A stretch of 41,521 nt of DNA from a virus, in IMG/VR virus record IMGVR_UViG_3300016461_000037, positions 1-41,521 of that record. One strand, given 5' to 3'. Made by a program: the position numbers and the translations under genes. Shown here piece after piece: positions 29,769 through 41,521 of the stretch. Numbering within the stretch: position 1 is the first letter of the stretch; the number at the start of each line of letters is the position of its first letter. Under the pieces are notes generated by a model. It ran no database searches, was not told the DNA's origin, and saw only the letters and a list, made by a program, of their open reading frames with translations.

Positions 29769-29851
29769 TCGCGCGAGCAGGCGAGTGCATCTATAGTCGC
29801 CAAATCAAGGCGCATGACGTGCCAATTCTCCTTATGTGGAATCACGTCATG
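29769..29851 (+). promoter_or_regulatory. Structured late leader 4
   Basis: TCGCGC (29769-29774), 17 bases, TATAGT (29792-29797), 12 bases, then GCGCATGACGTGC (29810-29822). CATGACGTG (29813-29821) pairs perfectly with CACGTCATG (29843-29851), which includes the start codon. ATTCT (29825-29829) pairs with GGAAT (29838-29842, one U-G) and so covers the GGA used as Shine-Dalgarno. Confidence 0.7.
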
Positions 29852-32800
29852 GCCGTTATCAAGATTGATGAAAACTACAAACCAGAAGATCCGCTTGGCC
29901 TGCTTAAGGGTGGAACTGGTTTCGGTCAGCAGCCCGCGACAACACAGCAGACACCGCAGCAAGCCAGACAGGCACCAGCGCCAACTTCGACCAACCTTGA
30001 CCCTCGCGACTACAATGACGTCGTAAACACCGTCATTGCTGAAGCCGGCGGTGAAGGCCCCGACGGCATGGCGGCCGTAGCGTCGGTCATCAAAAATCGC
30101 TCGGCCAGGCGCTATCAGGGGATCGGAGACGTCGTTCGCGCTCCCAAGCAGTTCGAGGGATATGAAAACCCCGGCGAAGGCTCCAGACGCGCCCAGCAAG
30201 ACCCCAAGGTCCGCAGCGAAGCCGAACGGATCGTCAATGGCGTTCTGGATGGGTCATTGCCAGACCCAACGGGCGGCGCTGATCATTTCAAGAACGATAC
30301 TGTAGACCCGGATTGGTCACGCAAGATGCCCGCCGTAGCGCGGATCGGTGGCCAGACCTTCTACAATTCCGGCGCAGGTTCCGGAGAGCCGACAAAAGCT
30401 CCAGCTGCACAGGCAATCGAGCACGTGCTTGGGCTCAATCAGCCATCGGCAAACGAAGTGAAGGAACCCGATACCCGTCGCGGCTTGGCGCGGCTGGTGC
30501 CTGAAGAACCGGCACCCAAATATGAAGGCGCAGGCGGCGCTCTGCGTTTCAACCACCCTGAACAAAACAAACTCAATCCTGCCTTTGACGCCATCTTGCG
30601 CGAAACGTCGAAGGCCATGGGCATGGATTTCACGATCACATCGGGCTTTCGTTCCGCACAGCACCCGGTTGAGGCGGCAAAAGCATCGCCCGGCGAACAC
30701 TCGAAAGGCGAAGCCTCAGATATCGATTTGCGCGGCATGAATGATCAACAGCGCATGCAACTGGTTCAGGATCTGCGCGCACGCGGCGTGAAGCGGTTCG
30801 GCACATATTCCGATTCCCCAAACATGTTGCATGTCGACATGAAGGATCAGACGGGCAGTGGCAAAGAATGGTTCATGCATGATCGCACGGCGCGTCGCAT
30901 GGGAAGTGCACCAGAATGGTTCCGGCAGGCCGCTGAAGGCAAGGCTCCATCCCCGGCTGGCAAATCGTCCGGGCAAGCCATCGAAGTCGGTGCGGACTTC
31001 GCGCCCTCAGATCCGCTTGGCATCCTAGCCGGGCAACAGAACCCGTTCGGGTTGGCTCAGCCACAACCCAAGACAGAAACCGAAGCCACACCTGTCGCGA
31101 CACAAGCCGAAGCTGTCAATCCGGAGGCGCAGCAGCTCGTGGCAAAGGAGCCTGGGCGCTACAAGGAAATGACGCAGGAGGAGTACGATTCCTTCAAGGC
31201 GGATTTCGATAAGAAACAGCCATGGCTCATTACCGACATGGCAAACATGTTCGTGGGCGGCACGTTCAAGGGGATTGGGCAGACCATTCGCGGCGCTGGT
31301 GCTCTGGCGAACTCCCTCGCCTCCCCGACAATCACGGATATCATCAATCCGATCTTTGGTACCGACTACAAGCCGAGCAATCCGCTAACGATGCCAGCGG
31401 ACTGGATGAAGAAATTCGGCCAGGACATTCAGGAAAATCCTGTCGGTGTTTCGGCGGCGACCAGAGAGGCTATTGCCGATTCAAACCCTGACGGCGATAT
31501 CTTGAAACCGTCGACATGGACGCTTGGCAAGAAGCCCAGCCTGCGGGGCTATACGGCGCTCGGCCTCGACGTGTTCGGTTCAATGGCTCCAGTCGTCGCT
31601 GGCGTCGTGGCGAGTGGTGGCGGTGCAACCACTGGTATGGCTGTTGGCGGTCTACAGGGCGGTGGCGCAGCTGAAGAAACGGCGCGAGACGTCATCGACG
31701 AGATGGCGCGCCAGCCCGGCATGCTGGAAAAGGAGTCGGCATATTTCCGCGAGCAGATCGCCGCCGGAAAAACTCGTGACGAAGCCGTTGCGGCAACAAA
31801 GGAAGCCGCTGGTCAGTCTGCTTTCATCTGGGACTTGCCGGTTTCGGCACTTGGTGGCGCGGCCACGGCCAAGCTTATCCACCCGGCGTCGCACGTTTTC
31901 GAAGGCGGACGTTTGGCAACCCGTGTCGCTGGTCGGACTGCAGCATCCGCATTGGAGGAAGGGGCGCAGGAAGTCGGTGAAACCATTGCCACCCGCCATG
32001 GCGTCAATCAAGGCGTTGGCACAGATCTCAATCTGACAGATGGCACGTTCTCTGACTTCCTTCTTGGAGCCATTGGTGGCGGTATTCCAGGCGCTGGTGG
32101 TGGATTGATGAGCAAGCGGGCTGAAAGCCACGCACGCGACGAAACCGCCCCGGCGCCGGGCGACGAACAAGATGCCCCCCAGCCTGCCAGCCCAGACGCG
32201 CCTGTTGCCCCGCCAAAAGGTCCGCTGGCGCGCGCCGCGGAGTACGGCCGTCAGCAGAATGTCCAGAAATTCACGATCAATGATGGCCCAATTGCGGGTA
32301 TGGGGCCCGGACCGCTCGACGGTCAGACGGTAAGCCTTGCTCCGGATCAGAGCGGCGTGTCGACGAATATGCGGCGCGTTGTGCTTCCGGACGGGCAGAT
32401 AACTGTTGTCGGCAACAATCTGCTCACAGCGCACAGCCCCCGCCCACTCGCTGCCAAGAATGCAGCTCCAGATGGTGCGCCACGTCCGGGCGCAACGGTT
32501 CGCGTTGATGCTCCCGGTATCGAACCATTCATGGGGCGCATTGAGGGCTATGCCGACGGCGAAGCCACAATTATCGATTCCGGCACCGGCGAGGTTATGC
32601 AGATCCCGGTTGGTAGCCTGACAGAAATAGCCAAGGCACCCGACGAACTCGCCGCCGGAACGCCGAATGAACGTCCGATCATCACGCTAGGGATGCGCGG
32701 CCAGCTTGAAGACATGGGATATTCGCCCGAAGCGGTTCGGAAAATGACACCCGAGCAGGCGGATGACATTCTAAAGAATGACAAGGCCGCAGTGACCGAG

Positions 32801-35800
32801 CAGACAATGCCGGCCGCCGAACCCGTTGGCAGCGAGCACAAGTCTGAACTCCCACCGGAATCGGACCAGATCAAGGCTGCATCACGCCCGCAGGGACCGC
32901 CGATGGCAGGCGAGCGCGTCATCATCCAGGCGCCGGGGGTCGAGCGGTTTAGCGGACGCATAGAGCGATACGAGGATGGTGCGAATGGTCCCGAAGCCGT
33001 CGTCACCAGCGAAGCTGGCACAGAGATGCAGGTGCCACTCGACAATCTCTATGTCACCAAAGTCACGCCCAAGCAGGCCGAACAGGCCGAACTGAAAGCA
33101 AACCCGCCGCTCGAGCGCGAGCCGATAGCCTCAGCGCCGGAGAACCGCACCGTTGGCGGCAAGCAGGTGATAATGCCCAACGCGCTGCATGCGCAGCTGT
33201 TCGACCTTGGCAAGGAGCGACTGACATCCAAGCGGCTTCTCGGCACATCGATGTTGGATATCGACAAAGCTTTTGCACCGAAGCAGGGCGAGCTGGCCGA
33301 CAAGCTCGGGGTAACTCCTGAAAGCCTTGGCAAGCTCGCTGATGATTATCGCTACCGAGTCGAACGCGCTGCAAAGGAAGCTCGTTCCGAGTTGCCGATC
33401 AGCATGCACGAGTTGAACGCCGAGCGCTTGAAAAACGCCCGTGCCGAACGTGCCGCGTCCGATCCACTACCAATTGACCCGGCAGTCGAGGCCAAGCGCG
33501 AAGTGGCGAATTGGTGGGATGGCGAACTGAACGACGAACAGCGCAAGGACATTCTTGCAAAGGCAGGCGTGAAGCGGTCCGAAAAGTTCCTCTGGAAAAA
33601 CCACAAGCCCAACATTCAGGCGAGGCTGGTCAAATTCCGTGAAAGTCCGGCAGCGCCGGTTGACCTTGCCGCGCGCGAGGCGGCCACATCGCCGCACAAC
33701 AGGCTTCCGGAACCGACACAGGCACAGAAGGAGGCCGGAAACTATGCCAAGGGGCACGTGCGTCTTGGCGGCATGGACATTTCGATTGAAAACCCCGCCG
33801 GATCGACCCGCAAGGGCAGCGATGCCAAGGGCAAGGCTTGGATGACCACCATGAAGAGCCATTATGGCTACTTCAAGGGCACCATTGGCCGCGATAAAGA
33901 TCACATCGACACTTTCATCAAGCCAGGCACGGCCGCCCTCACAGACGCCTCGCCAATCTTTGTCGTCGATCAGAAGAACGCGAGTGGCGCGTTCGACGAA
34001 CACAAGGTCATGACCGGCTACGGCAACGAAGTCGAAGCCCGTGTTGCCTACAATGAGAACTATTCCAAAGGCTGGAAGGGGATGGGCGATGTCACCGCGA
34101 CAACGCTCGGAGAATTCAAGTGCTGGTTGAGCGAGGGTGACACCACAAAGCCATTTGCGAAGCAGTCCCAAGAGACAGCTACTGACACGCCAAAGGTGGG
34201 AACACCTGAGTACCGTGCCGCGCTCGATGACGATATCGAGCAAGCCAAAGCAGCTGCCAAGAACTTCAATTCTGGTGATGAGGTGGAAACTACCGGTGAG
34301 GGTCGCACTTTGCGCGGTACGATCGCTGGTAAAGCAGATTCCATAGGAAGCTTCACGGTCAAAAAAGACAACGGCAGCACGTTCTACGCGCGTGCCTCAA
34401 TGTTGCGTAAGGTTGCCACCGAGATAACTTCTGAAAGCGATTTCGTGGGCAATCCGCTTCCAGAACGGGGAGTGGCACCCGCCACTCGCGGCAGCGATGG
34501 TAAAATCTACGTTGGTAGACCAGGAGGGGTACATTTCGAGATCGAGCGGCCGGACGGCGTTGAATGGAGCGATATCGGTTTTGTAACGCCGTCCGGTGAG
34601 TTTCTTGATCGAAAGCAGGCGTTCGACTGGGTTGAGAAAAATGAAAAGCCGGTAACGCCTTCTGACAACATGGGCCGATCGCTTGACGCGCTCGACTACC
34701 GTGAGCAGGTGCCGGAGCGCTCGCGAAAATCCGCAAATACCGATCCAGTTGGCCGTGACGGCGATACAGTCGACCAGGCGTCGCCAGCGCCCGCCGAGTG
34801 GGGCGCATCCAACAAGCTGGTTTCCCGCGATCGCGCAGACGAAATTCGAAAGAAGTTGCGCGAGAAACTGACCGGACAAATCTCGTCGGGCATTGATCCA
34901 GAGATTTTGGCACTTGGTACAGAACTTGCCGCGTTCCACATCGAAGCGGGCGCGCGCCGCTTTGCGGATTTTGCGCGTGCCGTCGCAGCCGACATGGGTG
35001 TTTCGGTAGAAAAAGTTCGACCATTTCTTCGTGCATGGTATAACGGTGCACGGGATTTGATGGAGGACTCCGGCGTCGATATTGCCGGAACCGACAATGC
35101 TGACGCTGTTAGGACCGCGCTCGCCGCGCTGAAGGATGAGGAACCGGCAAATGGCCGATCTGCAAAACTGGATCAACGACGCCCGTCAGCACTGGAAGGA
35201 ATTCCTGCCGAAACGGTACAGCGAGCTGAAGAAGGCGGGAGTGCTCGAAAAGGCACTGAACGACGCAGCGAACCAGACCTATTTGGAAACGAACCAGTTG
35301 GAAGAGAACGGATTCCAGCCGGACGAGGCATGGCAGATGGTTCGCGAGAACTATCTGATGTTGCCGGCGGAAGACCAGCACCAGACGACAGCGGAAAACC
35401 AGTCGCTAAGCCATCAGATGAGGCAAGCAGTTCGGAACGGCCAACGCGAGATGCCAATCGAGTAACATCGAAGGCGGACGCTTCACAGTCTGTCGCGGTA
35501 CCGGCCGCCGATCGCCAGATCGACTACACGCTTTCCGAAGCTGACGAACTCGGCCAGGGCGGGGCCAAGACCAAATTCCGAAACAACGTCGCGGCAATCA
35601 AACTCTTGCGGGAGCTTGCCGACGCAAACCGACCAGCGACACGGGACGAACAGTCCGTTCTTGCAAAGTGGGTTGGTTGGGGCGGCCTGCGCGCTGCATT
35701 TCCAAGAGAAGATGGCTCGGTAAACAAGGGCTGGGAAAAGGAAGCTTCCACACTCCAGGAACTGCTCACGCCGGAAGAACTTCGCGCCGCGGAATCGTCG

Positions 35801-38800
35801 ACGCGCAACGCTCATTACACGTCGCCTGAAGTGGTCGACGCCATGTGGCGCATCGCGCAGCGTCTTGGTTTCCAAGGCGGCCAGGTGCTTGAACCGTCGG
35901 TCGGTGCTGGCAACTTCCTTGGTTTGATGCCTGGCGCGCTGCGCGAGGGTTCAAACATCACCGGGGTGGAGCTCGATCACATCACCGGTGGTATCGCGAA
36001 GAACCTCTATCCGGCCGCCAACATCCAGGCACCTGTCGGTTTTCAGGAGTTTGCTGTCCCAGATCAGCACTTTGACCTTGCGATCGGCAATCCGCCATTT
36101 GGTAGTGAACGCCTCTATGACAAGCAGCGCCGCGCCCTCAACAAGTTCAGCATCCATAATTTCTTCTTTGCCAAGAGCATCGATGGCCTGAAGCCACACG
36201 GTGTGCTCGCGATGGTCGTAACCAATGCGTTCCTTGACGCGGCCGACGGCAAGGCGCGCCAATATATTTCTGACCGTGCGGATCTGCTTGGCGCAATCCG
36301 ATTGCCCAACAATGCATTCCAGAAGAATGCCGGAACTGAAGTGACAACTGACGTTGTTCTGTTTCAGAGGCGCGAGCCAGATGCCGCACCAAAGGATACA
36401 TCTTGGACCGAGATTGGCTCGGTAAAGGACAAGGAGGGCCGCTCTGTCCCGCTAAATTCATACTTCGTCGCGAATCCGCAGATGATGCTCGGTGATTTTG
36501 GGGCATATGGCTCGATGTATCGTGCAGACGAGCCGGCGCTGGTTGCCCGGCCAGGCGAAGTGTTGAGCGAAGAACTCAACAAGGCGATATCGGCAATGCC
36601 TGAGAATGTCATGAAGGCACCGGGCACTGCTGTCGTTTCCGAAGTTATCACGGTGCCGGACACCGTCGAGGAAGCTCAACAGGGATCAATGTTCCTCTCG
36701 CCAGATGGAACAATCCACCTCCGCACGGCGGATTCGCTGGGCCAAGCACAGTCTACGGCTGTTGATCTCGGAAACGAAAAGGCAAAGGAACGCGTCAGCG
36801 GCATGATCCGTATACGTGATGCTTTCGCCCGATTGCGCCGCGCTCAAATCGATGCAGCAAGCACAGATGCGAAGCTGGACAATCTGCGTAAGCGTCTCAA
36901 CGATTTCTACGACGCCTTCGCAAAGAAACACGGACCCATCAATTCCGACGCCAACAAGCGTCTGTTCCGCGACGATCCGACGTGGCCGCAGATATCTGCG
37001 CTCGAAGATGGTTTCGACAGAGGGATCAGCGCGGCTATCGCCAAAACGACCGGTGAGACCCCCCGCGCGCCGTCGGCACGCAAAGCGCCGATCTTCACCA
37101 AGCGCACGCAAGAGCCATACAGCCCACCAACGAAGGTAACGTCGGCCAAGGACGCATTGGCAACCGTGCTCGCGGATCGTGGGCGCGTGGATCTCGACGC
37201 CATGTCCAGGCTCTACGGAAAGCCTGCCGACGAGGTTGTGAAAGAGTTGGGCGCGCTGGTCTACAAGACACCCTCGGGTGCCTTTGAGACGGCTGATGGC
37301 TATCTGTCTGGCAACGTCAAACAGAAGCTTGCAGAAGCCCAACGTGCCGCAGAAACTGATCCAGATTTCCGCCGGAATATTGCAGCGCTGCGCGATGTTA
37401 TTCCGGCCGATATCGAGCCAGTTGATATCGACGTAAAGCCCGGCGCGCCATGGTTGCCGGCGAACCACGTAGCCGACTTTATTGACCACGTCATGGATAC
37501 AAAGGGTTCGCGCGCATTCTACTCGAGCGCAAACGCGAAGTGGGCCATCGATGGCGGTCGGCCGACGGAGGCCGCGGCCGCGCTGTGGGGCACCGCGCGC
37601 ACCAACGTCCAAACAATCCTCGACGCCGCCGTAAATGGACAGTCCATCACTGTCCGTGACCAACACAGGGACGGAACGTCGACAGTCAACCAGGCTGCAA
37701 CAGATGCAGCGAACGAAAAGCTCGAGCGCGTGAAGGCCGAGTGGAAGAAATGGCTTTGGCAGGACGATTCTCGGCGCGAGCAGCTGGGCCGGTTATACAA
37801 TGATACGTTCAACACCGATGTCCTTCGGGTGTTCGACGGCTCGCATCTCTCGTTTCCGGGCAAGGTCGGCGACGACATTGTCACCTTGCGCCCGAACCAG
37901 AAGAACTTTGTCTGGCGGACGCTGCAGTCCGGCACGTCGCTTGCCGATCACGTTGTGGGCGCTGGCAAGACGTTCGCGCTAATCGCTTCCGTTATGGAAA
38001 AGCGGCGCATCGGCCAGGCCAAGAAGCCGCTGCTGACTGTTCCCAATCATCTTGTCGGGCAGTGGGCGTCGGATTTCATTAAACTCTACCCAGGCGCGAA
38101 GGTGCTTGCCGCCACGAAGAAGGACTTCGAGGCCGAGAACCGCAAGCGGCTCTTTGCGCGAATTGCAACCGGTGATTGGGACGCGGTGATTGTCGCTCAT
38201 TCATCGTTCGGCAAGATCGGGGTAACACCCGAATTCGAAGCCAAATTCATACGCGAGCAAATCGCCGATATCGAAGCGTCGATCAAAGCGCTGCGCGCCG
38301 CTACCGGCGAGAAGTCCCGCAACGTGGCACAGCTTTCCAAATGGCGCGACAATATGGAAGCCAAGCTTCAGCGTTTGTTGGACGCAGGCCGCAAGGACGG
38401 TGGGCTGTATTTTGACGAGCTGGGCGTCGACGCCTTGTATGTTGATGAATTCCACGAATTCAAGAACCTCGCGTTCAGTACGTCGATGCAGCGTGTTGCT
38501 GGTCTGGGAAATGCGGCCGGAAGCCAGAAGGCCGCCGACATGTACATGAAAATGTCGATGGTGTTGGAGCGCACCGGCGACAAGAACGTGGTGACAGCCA
38601 CTGGCACGCCGCTCTCCAACACAATGGCCGAGATGTACACGCTCCAGCGGTACCTGGACAACAAGGCGCTGAAGGCGCTCGGCGTCTCGCATTTCGACGC
38701 CTGGGCACGTTTATTCGGTGACGTCGTGACGGATTGGGAACTCTCCCCCTCCGGGATGTACAAGCTCAACACACGCTTCGCCAAATTCGTAAACATGCCG

Positions 38801-41521
38801 GAGCTGATGCAGCGTTACCTGAGTTTTGCTGACGTCATCACCAATGATGATATCAAAGCCCAGCTCGCTTCGATCGGCAAAAAGTTCCCGCTCCCAAAGG
38901 TCAAGGGCGGAAAGCCTCAGAACGTCGTGGTTGAACGCTCTGCGGAGCAAGCGCGTTTCATTGGCGAAGGCACTACTGACGACAACGGTGTGCTGTCGTT
39001 CCCTGCGGGATCGCTGGTTTATCGCGCCGAGAATCTGCCGAAGAAAGCGGAAAAGGGCCGCGACAACATGCTGAAGGTGATGTCCGACGCCCGCAAGGCC
39101 GCCCTGGACATGCGCCTGATCAATCCGGCGTATCCGGATACTCCCGGTTCTAAGGTCCATATCGCTGCTGACAATATCCTCCGCGTTCACGGCCAGTGGG
39201 CAGAGAAGAAGGGCACACAGCTAGTGTTCATCGATCTCTCCACTCCGAAAAAGGCGAAGGCAAGAGAAGAGGCGGCAATCCGCGAATTGGTCCGGAAGGC
39301 CGACGCGGGCGACGAGGCCGCGCAGACCAAGCTCGACAATATGTCGCCGGACGAATTCATGGCACTCGACGGCAAATTCAGTGTCTATGACGATCTGAAA
39401 GAGAAACTGATCCAGCGGGGCATTCCCGAATCCGAAATCGCCTTCATTCATGATGCGAACACGGACCTTCAGAAGGAAGAGCTGTTCGGCAAGGTTCGTT
39501 CTGGTCGCGTTCGCATTTTGTTTGGCTCTACGCCGAAGATGGGTGCCGGCACAAACGTCCAAAACCTACTCGTGGCCCTGCACCATCTCGATGCACCGTG
39601 GCGGCCTTCGGATCTCGAACAACGCGACGGCCGGGGCATCCGCCAGGGCAACGAGCTTTACAACGAAGATCCCGATGGGTTTGAGATCGAGATACTGCGA
39701 TACGCAACCAAGAACACGCTCGACGCGCGTCAATGGCAGACAATCGAGGTCAAGGCACGGTTCATCCAGCAGATGCGCAAGGGTGGCATCAAGACGCGCG
39801 AGATAGAAGATATCTCAGGTGAAGCTGCCAATTCAGCGGAGATGAAGGCCGCTGCGTCCGGCAATCCACTTATTCTTGAAGAAATGGACCTTCGCCAGAA
39901 GGTGCGCCGTCTCGAGAGCCAAGCTGCAGAGCATGATCGGGAACAGCACCGCATCGTGCGGCGCGCGCGGGAAATGACTGAAGAGAAACAACGCCTGACC
40001 AAGCGCCTTGCAGCGGCACAGGGCGACGCCGACACAGCACTTGAAGCTGCAAAGTTGCCATTCTCGGCGGTGGTTTCGGGCGAGACGTTTGAGAAACCAA
40101 AAGACTTCGGCGCCGCGCTGGTCGCCGCCGGCCGCGCAATGCTCAAGGACAACACAGATGAGGTCCAGCTGGGCAAGTATGCGGGGTTCGATCTGTCGCT
40201 GGTCCACGATCACACGACGGCGCTGACAATCAACGTCGATGGAAAGGAAACTCACGAAGTGCCGATCCAAGATGTGGAGTCGGCTGACCCGCTCGGCGTA
40301 GCAATGAGGGTGATCAACACCGTCCGCAAACTGCCCGATGCACCGTTGGTGATGGAAGAGCGTATATCTGAGATCGACAAGCAGATTCCGCAGTTGGAAA
40401 AGCAGCTGGGGCCATGGCAAAACGCAGAGCAGCTCGATGAGACTGCGAAGCGCCACCGCGAAGTTTTGGACGCTCTTAAGCCGAAACCAAAGCCCGCCGC
40501 ATCCCCTGCCCCAGAAGCAAAGAACTCCGTTGCTCCGGAAGGTCCACGCGAACACGGGATACCCGCCAGAACACCATTCCTTTCCTCGCATTCGGATGTC
40601 TCCAAACTTCAGTCGCATCCGGATTACGAAATGGCCAAGGCCGGCGACAAAGCCGCCGCGGTTAAGGTCGTTCAAGATGTGGTAACGCCGAATTCAATCG
40701 AGCAAGCCCGCGCGCATTTCGGTTCCGACGTGATCTACGCTCCTGTCATCGCAATGGAGGCTTCTGGAAAGAACGCGCTCCCCGCCATGGCGGCCGCACT
40801 TTATGCTCAGAGTACCGGAGCCCAGGTGTCGAAGGAGATATCGCAGGTCAATCGTGCGTACCATACCGGCGCGAAACCGATGGAGCGACTTGCTGTCCGG
40901 GCACGCTTCGGTGGGCCAGTGGTCAAAGGCGCCCGATATGTTATAGTCGACGATGTCACCGTTATGGGGTCCACCATTGCAGAGATGGCGAACCATATCA
41001 GCCAGAACGGTGGCGAGGTTGCAGGCGTCGTCACACTTGTAAATGCTTCAAGACTTGATAAAACAGCGCCAACCAACGTTCAAATCCGCGAGATTGAAAG
41101 GAGATTTGGTGATGTCATCCAAAATGAACTCGGCCTCACGCCTTCCAGTCTCACAGCCTCAGAAGCAGGATACATCCTCAACTTCAGAGATGCTGACGCC
41201 CTCCGAGCTCGCATCATTGCGTCAAGAGGCGAACGAGCAGATCGACTACGGGCTAAAGGCATTCGCCCATCTCAGGCCGACGAAGGCAAAGAAGGCGGCT
41301 TAACGCCCGAAACCCTGCGCGCCGAACTTGAGAACGGCGCTGCATCCTCCCTCATTGGAAAACTGGTCGACCAGGGCAAACTCGTCATCGGCACAGCCAC
41401 GAAAAACGGTGGCGTCGCTGGTGTCCAGGCGTGGACGAACACCGATGGTACGATCACACTTATCTCGGATCGCATAGCGCCGGGGCAAGCGCAGGCCGTG
41501 CTGCTCCACGAAGCGTTCCCC
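29849..41521 (+). CDS. Giant polyvalent virion protein (partial, runs off the right edge)
   Basis: Open for 3891 codons without stop. Domains: SleB/CwlJ-type wall hydrolase about 55-180 (Glu65 in VIAEAGGEG, QF at 101); M15-type peptidase about 225-335 (His284, Asp291, His328 in EHSKGEASDIDL and MLHVDM); a Gly-rich hydrophobic region about 560-740; repeated SH3-like modules near 880 and 1020; pyrophosphatase-like module about 1300-1430; the conserved GIDPEILALGTELAAFHIEA part; a methyltransferase near 2010-2150 (EPSVGAGNF, IGNPPFG); an SNF2-type helicase about 2640-3290 (VVGAGKT, DEFHEF, TATGTPLSN, RDGRGIRQG); a phosphoribosyltransferase near 3640-3760 (VIVDDVTVMGST). The visible end reads LLHEAF. 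DarB-like proteins of this class enter the cell with the DNA and counter restriction. Confidence 0.9.
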   Translation, partial: MAVIKIDENYKPEDPLGLLKGGTGFGQQPATTQQTPQQARQAPAPTSTNLDPRDYNDVVNTVIAEAGGEGPDGMAAVASVIKNRSARRYQGIGDVVRAPKQFEGYENPGEGSRRAQQDPKVRSEAERIVNGVLDGSLPDPTGGADHFKNDTVDPDWSRKMPAVARIGGQTFYNSGAGSGEPTKAPAAQAIEHVLGLNQPSANEVKEPDTRRGLARLVPEEPAPKYEGAGGALRFNHPEQNKLNPAFDAILRETSKAMGMDFTITSGFRSAQHPVEAAKASPGEHSKGEASDIDLRGMNDQQRMQLVQDLRARGVKRFGTYSDSPNMLHVDMKDQTGSGKEWFMHDRTARRMGSAPEWFRQAAEGKAPSPAGKSSGQAIEVGADFAPSDPLGILAGQQNPFGLAQPQPKTETEATPVATQAEAVNPEAQQLVAKEPGRYKEMTQEEYDSFKADFDKKQPWLITDMANMFVGGTFKGIGQTIRGAGALANSLASPTITDIINPIFGTDYKPSNPLTMPADWMKKFGQDIQENPVGVSAATREAIADSNPDGDILKPSTWTLGKKPSLRGYTALGLDVFGSMAPVVAGVVASGGGATTGMAVGGLQGGGAAEETARDVIDEMARQPGMLEKESAYFREQIAAGKTRDEAVAATKEAAGQSAFIWDLPVSALGGAATAKLIHPASHVFEGGRLATRVAGRTAASALEEGAQEVGETIATRHGVNQGVGTDLNLTDGTFSDFLLGAIGGGIPGAGGGLMSKRAESHARDETAPAPGDEQDAPQPASPDAPVAPPKGPLARAAEYGRQQNVQKFTINDGPIAGMGPGPLDGQTVSLAPDQSGVSTNMRRVVLPDGQITVVGNNLLTAHSPRPLAAKNAAPDGAPRPGATVRVDAPGIEPFMGRIEGYADGEATIIDSGTGEVMQIPVGSLTEIAKAPDELAAGTPNERPIITLGMRGQLEDMGYSPEAVRKMTPEQADDILKNDKAAVTEQTMPAAEPVGSEHKSELPPESDQIKAASRPQGPPMAGERVIIQAPGVERFSGRIERYEDGANGPEAVVTSEAGTEMQVPLDNLYVTKVTPKQAEQAELKANPPLEREPIASAPENRTVGGKQVIMPNALHAQLFDLGKERLTSKRLLGTSMLDIDKAFAPKQGELADKLGVTPESLGKLADDYRYRVERAAKEARSELPISMHELNAERLKNARAERAASDPLPIDPAVEAKREVANWWDGELNDEQRKDILAKAGVKRSEKFLWKNHKPNIQARLVKFRESPAAPVDLAAREAATSPHNRLPEPTQAQKEAGNYAKGHVRLGGMDISIENPAGSTRKGSDAKGKAWMTTMKSHYGYFKGTIGRDKDHIDTFIKPGTAALTDASPIFVVDQKNASGAFDEHKVMTGYGNEVEARVAYNENYSKGWKGMGDVTATTLGEFKCWLSEGDTTKPFAKQSQETATDTPKVGTPEYRAALDDDIEQAKAAAKNFNSGDEVETTGEGRTLRGTIAGKADSIGSFTVKKDNGSTFYARASMLRKVATEITSESDFVGNPLPERGVAPATRGSDGKIYVGRPGGVHFEIERPDGVEWSDIGFVTPSGEFLDRKQAFDWVEKNEKPVTPSDNMGRSLDALDYREQVPERSRKSANTDPVGRDGDTVDQASPAPAEWGASNKLVSRDRADEIRKKLREKLTGQISSGIDPEILALGTELAAFHIEAGARRFADFARAVAADMGVSVEKVRPFLRAWYNGARDLMEDSGVDIAGTDNADAVRTALAALKDEEPANGRSAKLDQRRPSALEGIPAETVQRAEEGGSARKGTERRSEPDLFGNEPVGRERIPAGRGMADGSRELSDVAGGRPAPDDSGKPVAKPSDEASSSERPTRDANRVTSKADASQSVAVPAADRQIDYTLSEADELGQGGAKTKFRNNVAAIKLLRELADANRPATRDEQSVLAKWVGWGGLRAAFPREDGSVNKGWEKEASTLQELLTPEELRAAESSTRNAHYTSPEVVDAMWRIAQRLGFQGGQVLEPSVGAGNFLGLMPGALREGSNITGVELDHITGGIAKNLYPAANIQAPVGFQEFAVPDQHFDLAIGNPPFGSERLYDKQRRALNKFSIHNFFFAKSIDGLKPHGVLAMVVTNAFLDAADGKARQYISDRADLLGAIRLPNNAFQKNAGTEVTTDVVLFQRREPDAAPKDTSWTEIGSVKDKEGRSVPLNSYFVANPQMMLGDFGAYGSMYRADEPALVARPGEVLSEELNKAISAMPENVMKAPGTAVVSEVITVPDTVEEAQQGSMFLSPDGTIHLRTADSLGQAQSTAVDLGNEKAKERVSGMIRIRDAFARLRRAQIDAASTDAKLDNLRKRLNDFYDAFAKKHGPINSDANKRLFRDDPTWPQISALEDGFDRGISAAIAKTTGETPRAPSARKAPIFTKRTQEPYSPPTKVTSAKDALATVLADRGRVDLDAMSRLYGKPADEVVKELGALVYKTPSGAFETADGYLSGNVKQKLAEAQRAAETDPDFRRNIAALRDVIPADIEPVDIDVKPGAPWLPANHVADFIDHVMDTKGSRAFYSSANAKWAIDGGRPTEAAAALWGTARTNVQTILDAAVNGQSITVRDQHRDGTSTVNQAATDAANEKLERVKAEWKKWLWQDDSRREQLGRLYNDTFNTDVLRVFDGSHLSFPGKVGDDIVTLRPNQKNFVWRTLQSGTSLADHVVGAGKTFALIASVMEKRRIGQAKKPLLTVPNHLVGQWASDFIKLYPGAKVLAATKKDFEAENRKRLFARIATGDWDAVIVAHSSFGKIGVTPEFEAKFIREQIADIEASIKALRAATGEKSRNVAQLSKWRDNMEAKLQRLLDAGRKDGGLYFDELGVDALYVDEFHEFKNLAFSTSMQRVAGLGNAAGSQKAADMYMKMSMVLERTGDKNVVTATGTPLSNTMAEMYTLQRYLDNKALKALGVSHFDAWARLFGDVVTDWELSPSGMYKLNTRFAKFVNMPELMQRYLSFADVITNDDIKAQLASIGKKFPLPKVKGGKPQNVVVERSAEQARFIGEGTTDDNGVLSFPAGSLVYRAENLPKKAEKGRDNMLKVMSDARKAALDMRLINPAYPDTPGSKVHIAADNILRVHGQWAEKKGTQLVFIDLSTPKKAKAREEAAIRELVRKADAGDEAAQTKLDNMSPDEFMALDGKFSVYDDLKEKLIQRGIPESEIAFIHDANTDLQKEELFGKVRSGRVRILFGSTPKMGAGTNVQNLLVALHHLDAPWRPSDLEQRDGRGIRQGNELYNEDPDGFEIEILRYATKNTLDARQWQTIEVKARFIQQMRKGGIKTREIEDISGEAANSAEMKAAASGNPLILEEMDLRQKVRRLESQAAEHDREQHRIVRRAREMTEEKQRLTKRLAAAQGDADTALEAAKLPFSAVVSGETFEKPKDFGAALVAAGRAMLKDNTDEVQLGKYAGFDLSLVHDHTTALTINVDGKETHEVPIQDVESADPLGVAMRVINTVRKLPDAPLVMEERISEIDKQIPQLEKQLGPWQNAEQLDETAKRHREVLDALKPKPKPAASPAPEAKNSVAPEGPREHGIPARTPFLSSHSDVSKLQSHPDYEMAKAGDKAAAVKVVQDVVTPNSIEQARAHFGSDVIYAPVIAMEASGKNALPAMAAALYAQSTGAQVSKEISQVNRAYHTGAKPMERLAVRARFGGPVVKGARYVIVDDVTVMGSTIAEMANHISQNGGEVAGVVTLVNASRLDKTAPTNVQIREIERRFGDVIQNELGLTPSSLTASEAGYILNFRDADALRARIIASRGERADRLRAKGIRPSQADEGKEGGLTPETLRAELENGAASSLIGKLVDQGKLVIGTATKNGGVAGVQAWTNTDGTITLISDRIAPGQAQAVLLHEAFP
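32486..33060 (+). repeat. Diverged repeat of an about 50-codon module in the giant gene
   Basis: Two related segments (about 32486-32635 and 32905-33060) share the order PG-x-x-V-x-V-x-APGIEPFMGRIEGY and APGVERFSGRIERY, then an acidic turn, EV/EM-x-MQ-I/V-P and a short end. A third, weaker copy lies near 34265-34415. They look like small beta-barrel (SH3-like) modules duplicated in the linker part of the protein. Confidence 0.6.
35151..35465 (+). CDS. Nested small gene inside the giant ORF (different frame)
   Basis: 104-residue protein in another frame than the giant ORF. ATG 35151 has GAGGA eight bases upstream. The sequence has a normal protein look: LQNWINDARQHWKEFLPKRY, then SELKKAGVLEKALNDAANQT, NGFQPDEAWQMVRENYLMLP, with Trp/Tyr/Phe and GC-rich third positions, while the giant frame across the same bases is low-complexity linker (Arg/Gly/Ser/Pro-rich). 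From memory, similar short helical proteins are encoded beside DarB-like genes in other phages. It stops at TAA 35463-35465. The giant frame stays open through it, so both may be translated. Function unknown. Confidence 0.7.
   Translation: MADLQNWINDARQHWKEFLPKRYSELKKAGVLEKALNDAANQTYLETNQLEENGFQPDEAWQMVRENYLMLPAEDQHQTTAENQSLSHQMRQAVRNGQREMPIE
41112..41303 (+). CDS. Second nested small gene candidate inside the giant ORF
   Basis: 63-residue protein in another frame. ATG 41112 is preceded by a strong AAAGGAG eight bases upstream. The last 37 residues (MLTPSELASLRQEANEQIDY, ending in LRPTKAKKAA) look like a short helical phage protein with basic end; the first 26 are Ser/Gln-rich. A later start at ATG 41190 is possible. 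In the giant frame this covers the end of the phosphoribosyltransferase domain and a linker, and that frame also looks coding at first. It is less certain than the nested gene at 35151. Confidence 0.45.
   Translation: MSSKMNSASRLPVSQPQKQDTSSTSEMLTPSELASLRQEANEQIDYGLKAFAHLRPTKAKKAA

Follow-up and report, generated by a model that had tools for sequence, protein, structure and literature searches.

The giant ORF at the right end of this viral sequence contains, at the junction of its two halves, a short ORF read in another frame. The questions that this arrangement raises are whether the short ORF is a gene in its own right and, if so, which of the two readings of the same bases is the older. 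The window, by which we mean the whole stretch of DNA that was analysed, corresponds to a single IMG/VR virus record, 41,521 bases long, in which terminase, portal, major head and internal virion genes are present. Pfam assignments place a cell-wall hydrolase, an M15 peptidase and an InPase domain before a linker in the giant ORF, and an Eco57I-type methylase, an SNF2/helicase and a phosphoribosyltransferase (PRTase) domain after it, which confirms the position, between a virion-type N-terminal half and a DarB-like half, that the earlier note had given to the short frame. With an Eco57I/TaqI-type methylase followed by an SNF2 helicase, both joined to virion-type domains, the host ORF encodes a polyvalent protein that is DarB-like and of the PBC5/Bcep22 type. 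The locus is a clean natural case of a broader question, whether the linker of a fusion protein can arise from the out-of-frame reading of an older gene.

Features of the giant ORF and of the small gene nested within it (positions in the window)
Feature	Position	Strand	Remarks
Giant DarB-like ORF	29819..41521	+	runs off right contig end
Cell wall hydrolase (Hydrolase_2), giant N-half	30050..30364	+	Pfam E 8e-14
InPase polyvalent-protein domain, giant N-half	33719..34129	+	Pfam E 9e-53
In-frame TGA	35130..35132	+	18 nt upstream of small ATG; blocks entry from upstream in small frame
Shine-Dalgarno AAGGATGAGG	35132..35141	+	GAGG 9 nt 5' of ATG; -6.3 kcal/mol with anti-SD
Linker in giant frame, same bases as small gene	35150..35464	+	low-complexity, GC3.31, stop-free
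Nested small gene, 104 codons + stop, +1 frame relative to giant	35151..35465	+	homologues in 99 delimited loci, conserved start, purifying selection in small frame
Predicted four-helix core, residues 4-68	35160..35354	+	AlphaFold2, pLDDT 92-95 per block over residues 11-70
Eco57I-type methylase, giant C-half	36041..36280	+	Pfam; helicase and PRTase domains come after

The two readings differ distinctly in composition. By codon position, the GC content is.62/.32/.75 in the small frame and.74/.61/.31 in the giant frame over the same bases, compared with a third-position value of.63-.66 in the rest of the giant; both the GC-rich third positions of the small frame and the odd, low-complexity character of the giant frame here, to which the earlier note drew attention, are borne out. 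An alternative in-frame ATG is present at 35136, and the start is assigned to 35151 instead because the homologues and the Shine-Dalgarno sequence favour it. In the giant frame the T of this ATG falls at the third position of an Asn codon, so that the small start could be abolished with the giant protein unaltered. Across the homologues the start codon, ATG and at times GTG, occupies one alignment position. The ribosome-binding site, already judged good from the window alone, is conserved in these relatives, with a median Shine-Dalgarno energy of -6.6 kcal/mol against -2.3 at other +1-phase ATGs, and -5 or lower is reached by 92% of the former and 16% of the latter.

Homologues of the small protein proved abundant, contrary to one of the outcomes that had been taken to speak against a gene. 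A tblastn search against phage records yields 21 records with a homologue, at 38-62% identity; among 11 phages examined, the giant DarB frame encloses the homologue in 10, and in PBC5 the homologue lies at the end of a split N-half. Profile scans give 68 viral loci and 21 genome loci, which are partly repeats of the same phages. Over these loci 99 genes were delimited, reducing to a non-redundant set of 58 at <85% identity. In 53 of the 58 the gene is nested, in the same +1 phase and at the same junction, with the giant frame open throughout, and the other five are free. None of the phage-record regions covered by the tblastn set has the small gene as an annotated gene. The plasmid collection holds no copies, and four group searches of cellular genomes returned only their seeds, plus one nested prophage-type copy (L120) in 401 genomes of one family, so any cellular reservoir of the small gene is rare. 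Gene finders forbid such overlaps, with the result that a conserved gene has been missed in phage records that include studied isolates (Bcep22-like phages, LASTA, PEp14, Atu_ph08 and PBC5). In Pseudomonas phage Itty13 (NC_070969; locus L006, 4902-16160) it is the giant gene itself that is misannotated: three long antisense ORFs have been called in its place, and the giant's true frame is open on the opposite strand.

Substitution rates were compared in aligned pairs of giants at low divergence, with fourfold sites of the neighbouring methylase region as the control. In the three closest bins, the rates at giant-silent sites, where a change leaves the giant protein unaltered (small position 2), are.011,.018 and.048, against.188,.381 and.523 for the control, just 5-10% of the neutral rate. 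At small-silent sites, where it is the small protein that stays unaltered (giant position 1), they are.132,.228 and.339, or ∼60-70% of the fourfold rate. It is thus the protein of the small frame that is constrained. The earlier note had named constraint in the giant frame alone as the pattern that would tell against the small gene; the result is the opposite, with selection acting mainly on the small frame. The giant is nevertheless also read through, since over the overlap its frame has no stop in any of 53 sequences where 57 would be expected from within-gene codon permutation or 188 from giant codon usage, although in these pooled counts over related sequences independence is overstated, the sequences being phylogenetically non-independent. 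The slowing at small-silent sites persists in part once stop-prone contexts are removed, and a weak amino-acid constraint on the giant linker is possible from these alignments.

Length contributes nothing to the case for a gene and was set aside as evidence. Seven further nested ORFs of at least 80 codons occur within this giant, whose longest +1 ORF is equalled or exceeded in 88% of synonymous codon shuffles (P 0.88), as would be expected if the ORF were no more than a chance open frame in a GC-rich giant gene. What chance does not account for is that the protein, its start, its Shine-Dalgarno sequence and the frame-specific constraint are conserved in dozens of divergent phages, or that free homologues occur elsewhere; the near-frozen state of the giant-silent sites refutes this explanation, to which we attach practically no probability. 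As a negative control, other large nested ORFs are open in 4 of 46, 8 of 41 and 6 of 49 relatives where this was testable, whereas the small gene has tblastn matches in 52 of 52. One ORF of this kind, with 118 codons and an ATG start at 39450-39806 of the window, lies in the helicase part of the giant and has tblastn matches in 39 relatives; as its frame is open in just 6 of 49, the similarity tracks the conserved giant protein.

The small frame might alternatively be entered from upstream, by a programmed frameshift in which ribosomes translating the N-half slip into it and produce a short virion protein with the small domain at its end. Sinorhizobium phage PBC5 (locus L003, 8880-9306) encodes just such a fusion in a single frame, and the PHROG profile phrog_938 (endolysin) ends in the small domain, its positions 2085-2183 matching the small protein at E 1e-32 as the sole strong PHROG match. 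The PBC5 fusion, however, results from a 4-base insertion that is absent from all of its close kin, and which joins the N-half to the small frame and splits the giant; the insertion is either a real mutation or a sequencing error. The phrog_938 match most likely stems from fused records such as PBC5, and the small domain is not an endolysin domain. The frameshift would also require an open run upstream of the domain, and 13 of the 53 nested genes have a small-frame stop 0-30 nt upstream of the ATG (in six of them, 0-6 nt), leaving no room to slip in. The Shine-Dalgarno sequence and ATG are conserved while the distance to the upstream stop varies. A programmed frameshift product was rejected on these grounds and appears highly improbable.

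The locus thus presents an ORF that lies complete, and in a different frame, within another coding gene; it has its own translation start signals, and both frames are under selection. We conclude from the comparative sequence evidence that 35151-35465 is very probably a genuine protein-coding gene, out of frame within the giant and with its own Shine-Dalgarno sequence and ATG, as the earlier note had supposed. The other side of the arrangement is the giant itself. A separate restart of its DarB half was considered and rejected, there being no conserved ATG or GTG with a Shine-Dalgarno sequence in the second half of the giant, and for this reason the giant must be made in one piece. In phage JC1 the giant has been detected in the virion by mass spectrometry (PMC9144972); a small gene left out of the annotation would be absent from the database searched.

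Which reading is older is a harder question. Coding potential is greater in the small frame than in the giant frame in 52 of 53 cases, with codon usage and composition closer to those of the phage itself. The small protein is folded, in contrast to the low-complexity linker, and the junction brings together modules that are otherwise combined elsewhere. These three observations favour an order in which the small gene came first, and the fusion of two large genes by reading through an older gene between them, proposed in the earlier note, would be the better account of origin. The intermediate that this proposal predicts, a small gene standing free with an N-half gene on one side and a separate DarB gene on the other, was not found among the homologues. 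The only split giant found is that of PBC5, by its 4-base insertion. The five free copies (Corticibacter, Marinimicrobia, a Hyphomicrobiales MAG, Pseudidiomarina and Variovorax) are polyphyletic on a poorly resolved tree, and at least one of them, the Variovorax copy (L100), falls inside a supported nested clade. In the Corticibacter and Variovorax copies the giant frame is still mostly open, as recent escapes predict. The free copies look like later escapes or remnants, and their candidacy as the ancestral state is unsupported by the tree, poorly resolved as it is.

Some observations lend weight to the reverse order, in which the giant was fused first and its linker is the older, the small gene having arisen de novo on top of it by overprinting. 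Nearly all copies are nested, very distant ones included; the free copies are polyphyletic and a separate-gene ancestor was not found; and an unrelated ORF occupies this slot in Pseudomonas phage 8P. Against this order, it is the small frame that has typical codon usage and composition, and the giant frame that departs from them, in those 52 of 53 cases; the highly constrained, folded protein is the small one and the low-complexity one is the linker; and the small gene is missing from DarB-type ORFs in which the region preceding the methylase is shorter or of another kind (L117, L119, L131 and L133). We regard an origin by overprinting as unlikely, though as a serious contender. It is quite possible, if somewhat short of an even chance, that an ancient small gene was trapped by the fusion of two large genes in a whole class of phages, those of alpha-, beta- and gamma-proteobacteria, cyanobacteria and possibly Campylobacterota, that all of its descendants are obliged to keep both readings, and that a new small fold works with the giant at a level hard-wired to the giant mRNA.

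The slot is also filled, in the same phase, by a small gene in distant DarB-like giants that lay beyond the reach of the first search. In Bcep22-like phages (8 phage records and 8 viral loci) the slot protein has 107-112 residues, and its Shine-Dalgarno sequence is of the AAGGAGGT type in nearly all copies and near-perfect in 8 of 8 viral loci. Profile comparison relates the USP_25 type to the main family (hhalign E 2e-7), and the Bcep22 type only weakly by sequence (hhalign probability 37%). The two nevertheless share their first three predicted helices, which span residues 3-17, 19-28 and 31-59 in the Bcep22 type and 4-18, 20-29 and 32-52 in the main family. Bcep22-like and USP_25-like phages thus carry divergent small genes in the same slot. 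A Helicobacter ganmani prophage (38% GC; locus L132, 5513-5917) has a 134-codon +1 slot ORF behind AAAGGAGAGG in its AT-rich giant, with only a marginal profile match, and may extend the arrangement to Campylobacterota phages. The ORF of phage 8P (locus L112, 4675-4947) is a different one, with 90 codons and a Shine-Dalgarno sequence in the same +1 slot of the giant; searches with the slot ORFs of 8P and Y7 gave no further relatives. A convincing slot gene is absent from the gut and streptococcal DarB-type ORFs and from Dfl-JY45.

Beyond its compact predicted helical core, the small protein has a C-terminal tail that is of low confidence in the AlphaFold2 model and flexible. Foldseek finds no significant fold match in the PDB (best E 2.0). 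The one significant match in BFVD is Q8W6J4, a 1093-residue record with 56% identity over the small domain; the PBC5 small domain gives the same identity value, and we take Q8W6J4 to be the PBC5 fusion ORF. The best Pfam match, DUF3243, scores 15.2 bits (E 0.027), below the gathering cut-off of 27 bits, and the defence, NCBIfam and Pfam libraries contain no meaningful match.

We envisage that the small protein is translated from its own Shine-Dalgarno sequence and ATG on the late mRNA that encodes the giant, its frame encoding the selected, folded protein (four-helix core and flexible tail). The giant frame over the same bases would serve as a permissive, disordered linker that mainly needs to stay open for the virion/peptidoglycan half to be synthesized in a single chain with the methylase-helicase half. 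In evolutionary terms, the linker would have arisen when the two large modules fused across the older small gene. Made together with the giant, the small protein may act as a partner that helps to fold it, assemble it or package it into the capsid. We advance this tentatively as the likeliest role, because synthesis of the small protein is obligatorily coupled to that of a capsid-entering giant and the two are co-inherited, the distances between small proteins and those between DarB proteins being correlated (Mantel r 0.69). Such a role would point to an unstudied partner of the DarB-type injected antirestriction proteins. The free copies show that the small protein can exist away from the giant, and a partner role is thus not the sole option. 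That the protein is instead a stand-alone anti-defence or host-takeover factor, merely sharing the DNA of the giant, would suit the antirestriction type of the locus, the existence of free copies and the Pseudidiomarina domain, which is fused to membrane helices and adjoins an McrBC pair. The defence library offers no match for such a factor, however, and late co-expression and co-inheritance suit a partner of the giant equally well or better; we consider a stand-alone factor rather unlikely, though the chief alternative to a partner role. The domain may have been put to a use linked to defence in Pseudidiomarina sediminum (locus L099, 7974-8759), where it is joined to what appear to be several membrane helices and is followed downstream by an AAA protein and McrC.

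Among known systems, the small gene resembles fully nested overlapping phage genes such as Rz1 inside Rz, described as embedded in JC1 (PMC9144972): each is a whole gene that is read in a different frame from the gene around it and carries start signals of its own. Here, in contrast, the outer gene is a fusion of 12-15 kb, constraint is stronger on the inner frame, and the outer gene contributes no more than a linker to the overlap. The host ORF, with virion lytic and peptidase domains, a methylase and an SNF2 helicase, is like the DarB-like giant polyvalent proteins, such as phage P1 DarB and Bcep22 gp75 (Iyer et al. 2017, PMC5512222); a gene inside such a giant is absent from the descriptions in the phage records and papers covered, the 2011 Bcep22 genome paper lying outside that scope. 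In P1, DarA and Hdf are required for DarB to enter the head (PMC12810830). They offer a possible functional analogy to the small protein, and no more than an analogy.
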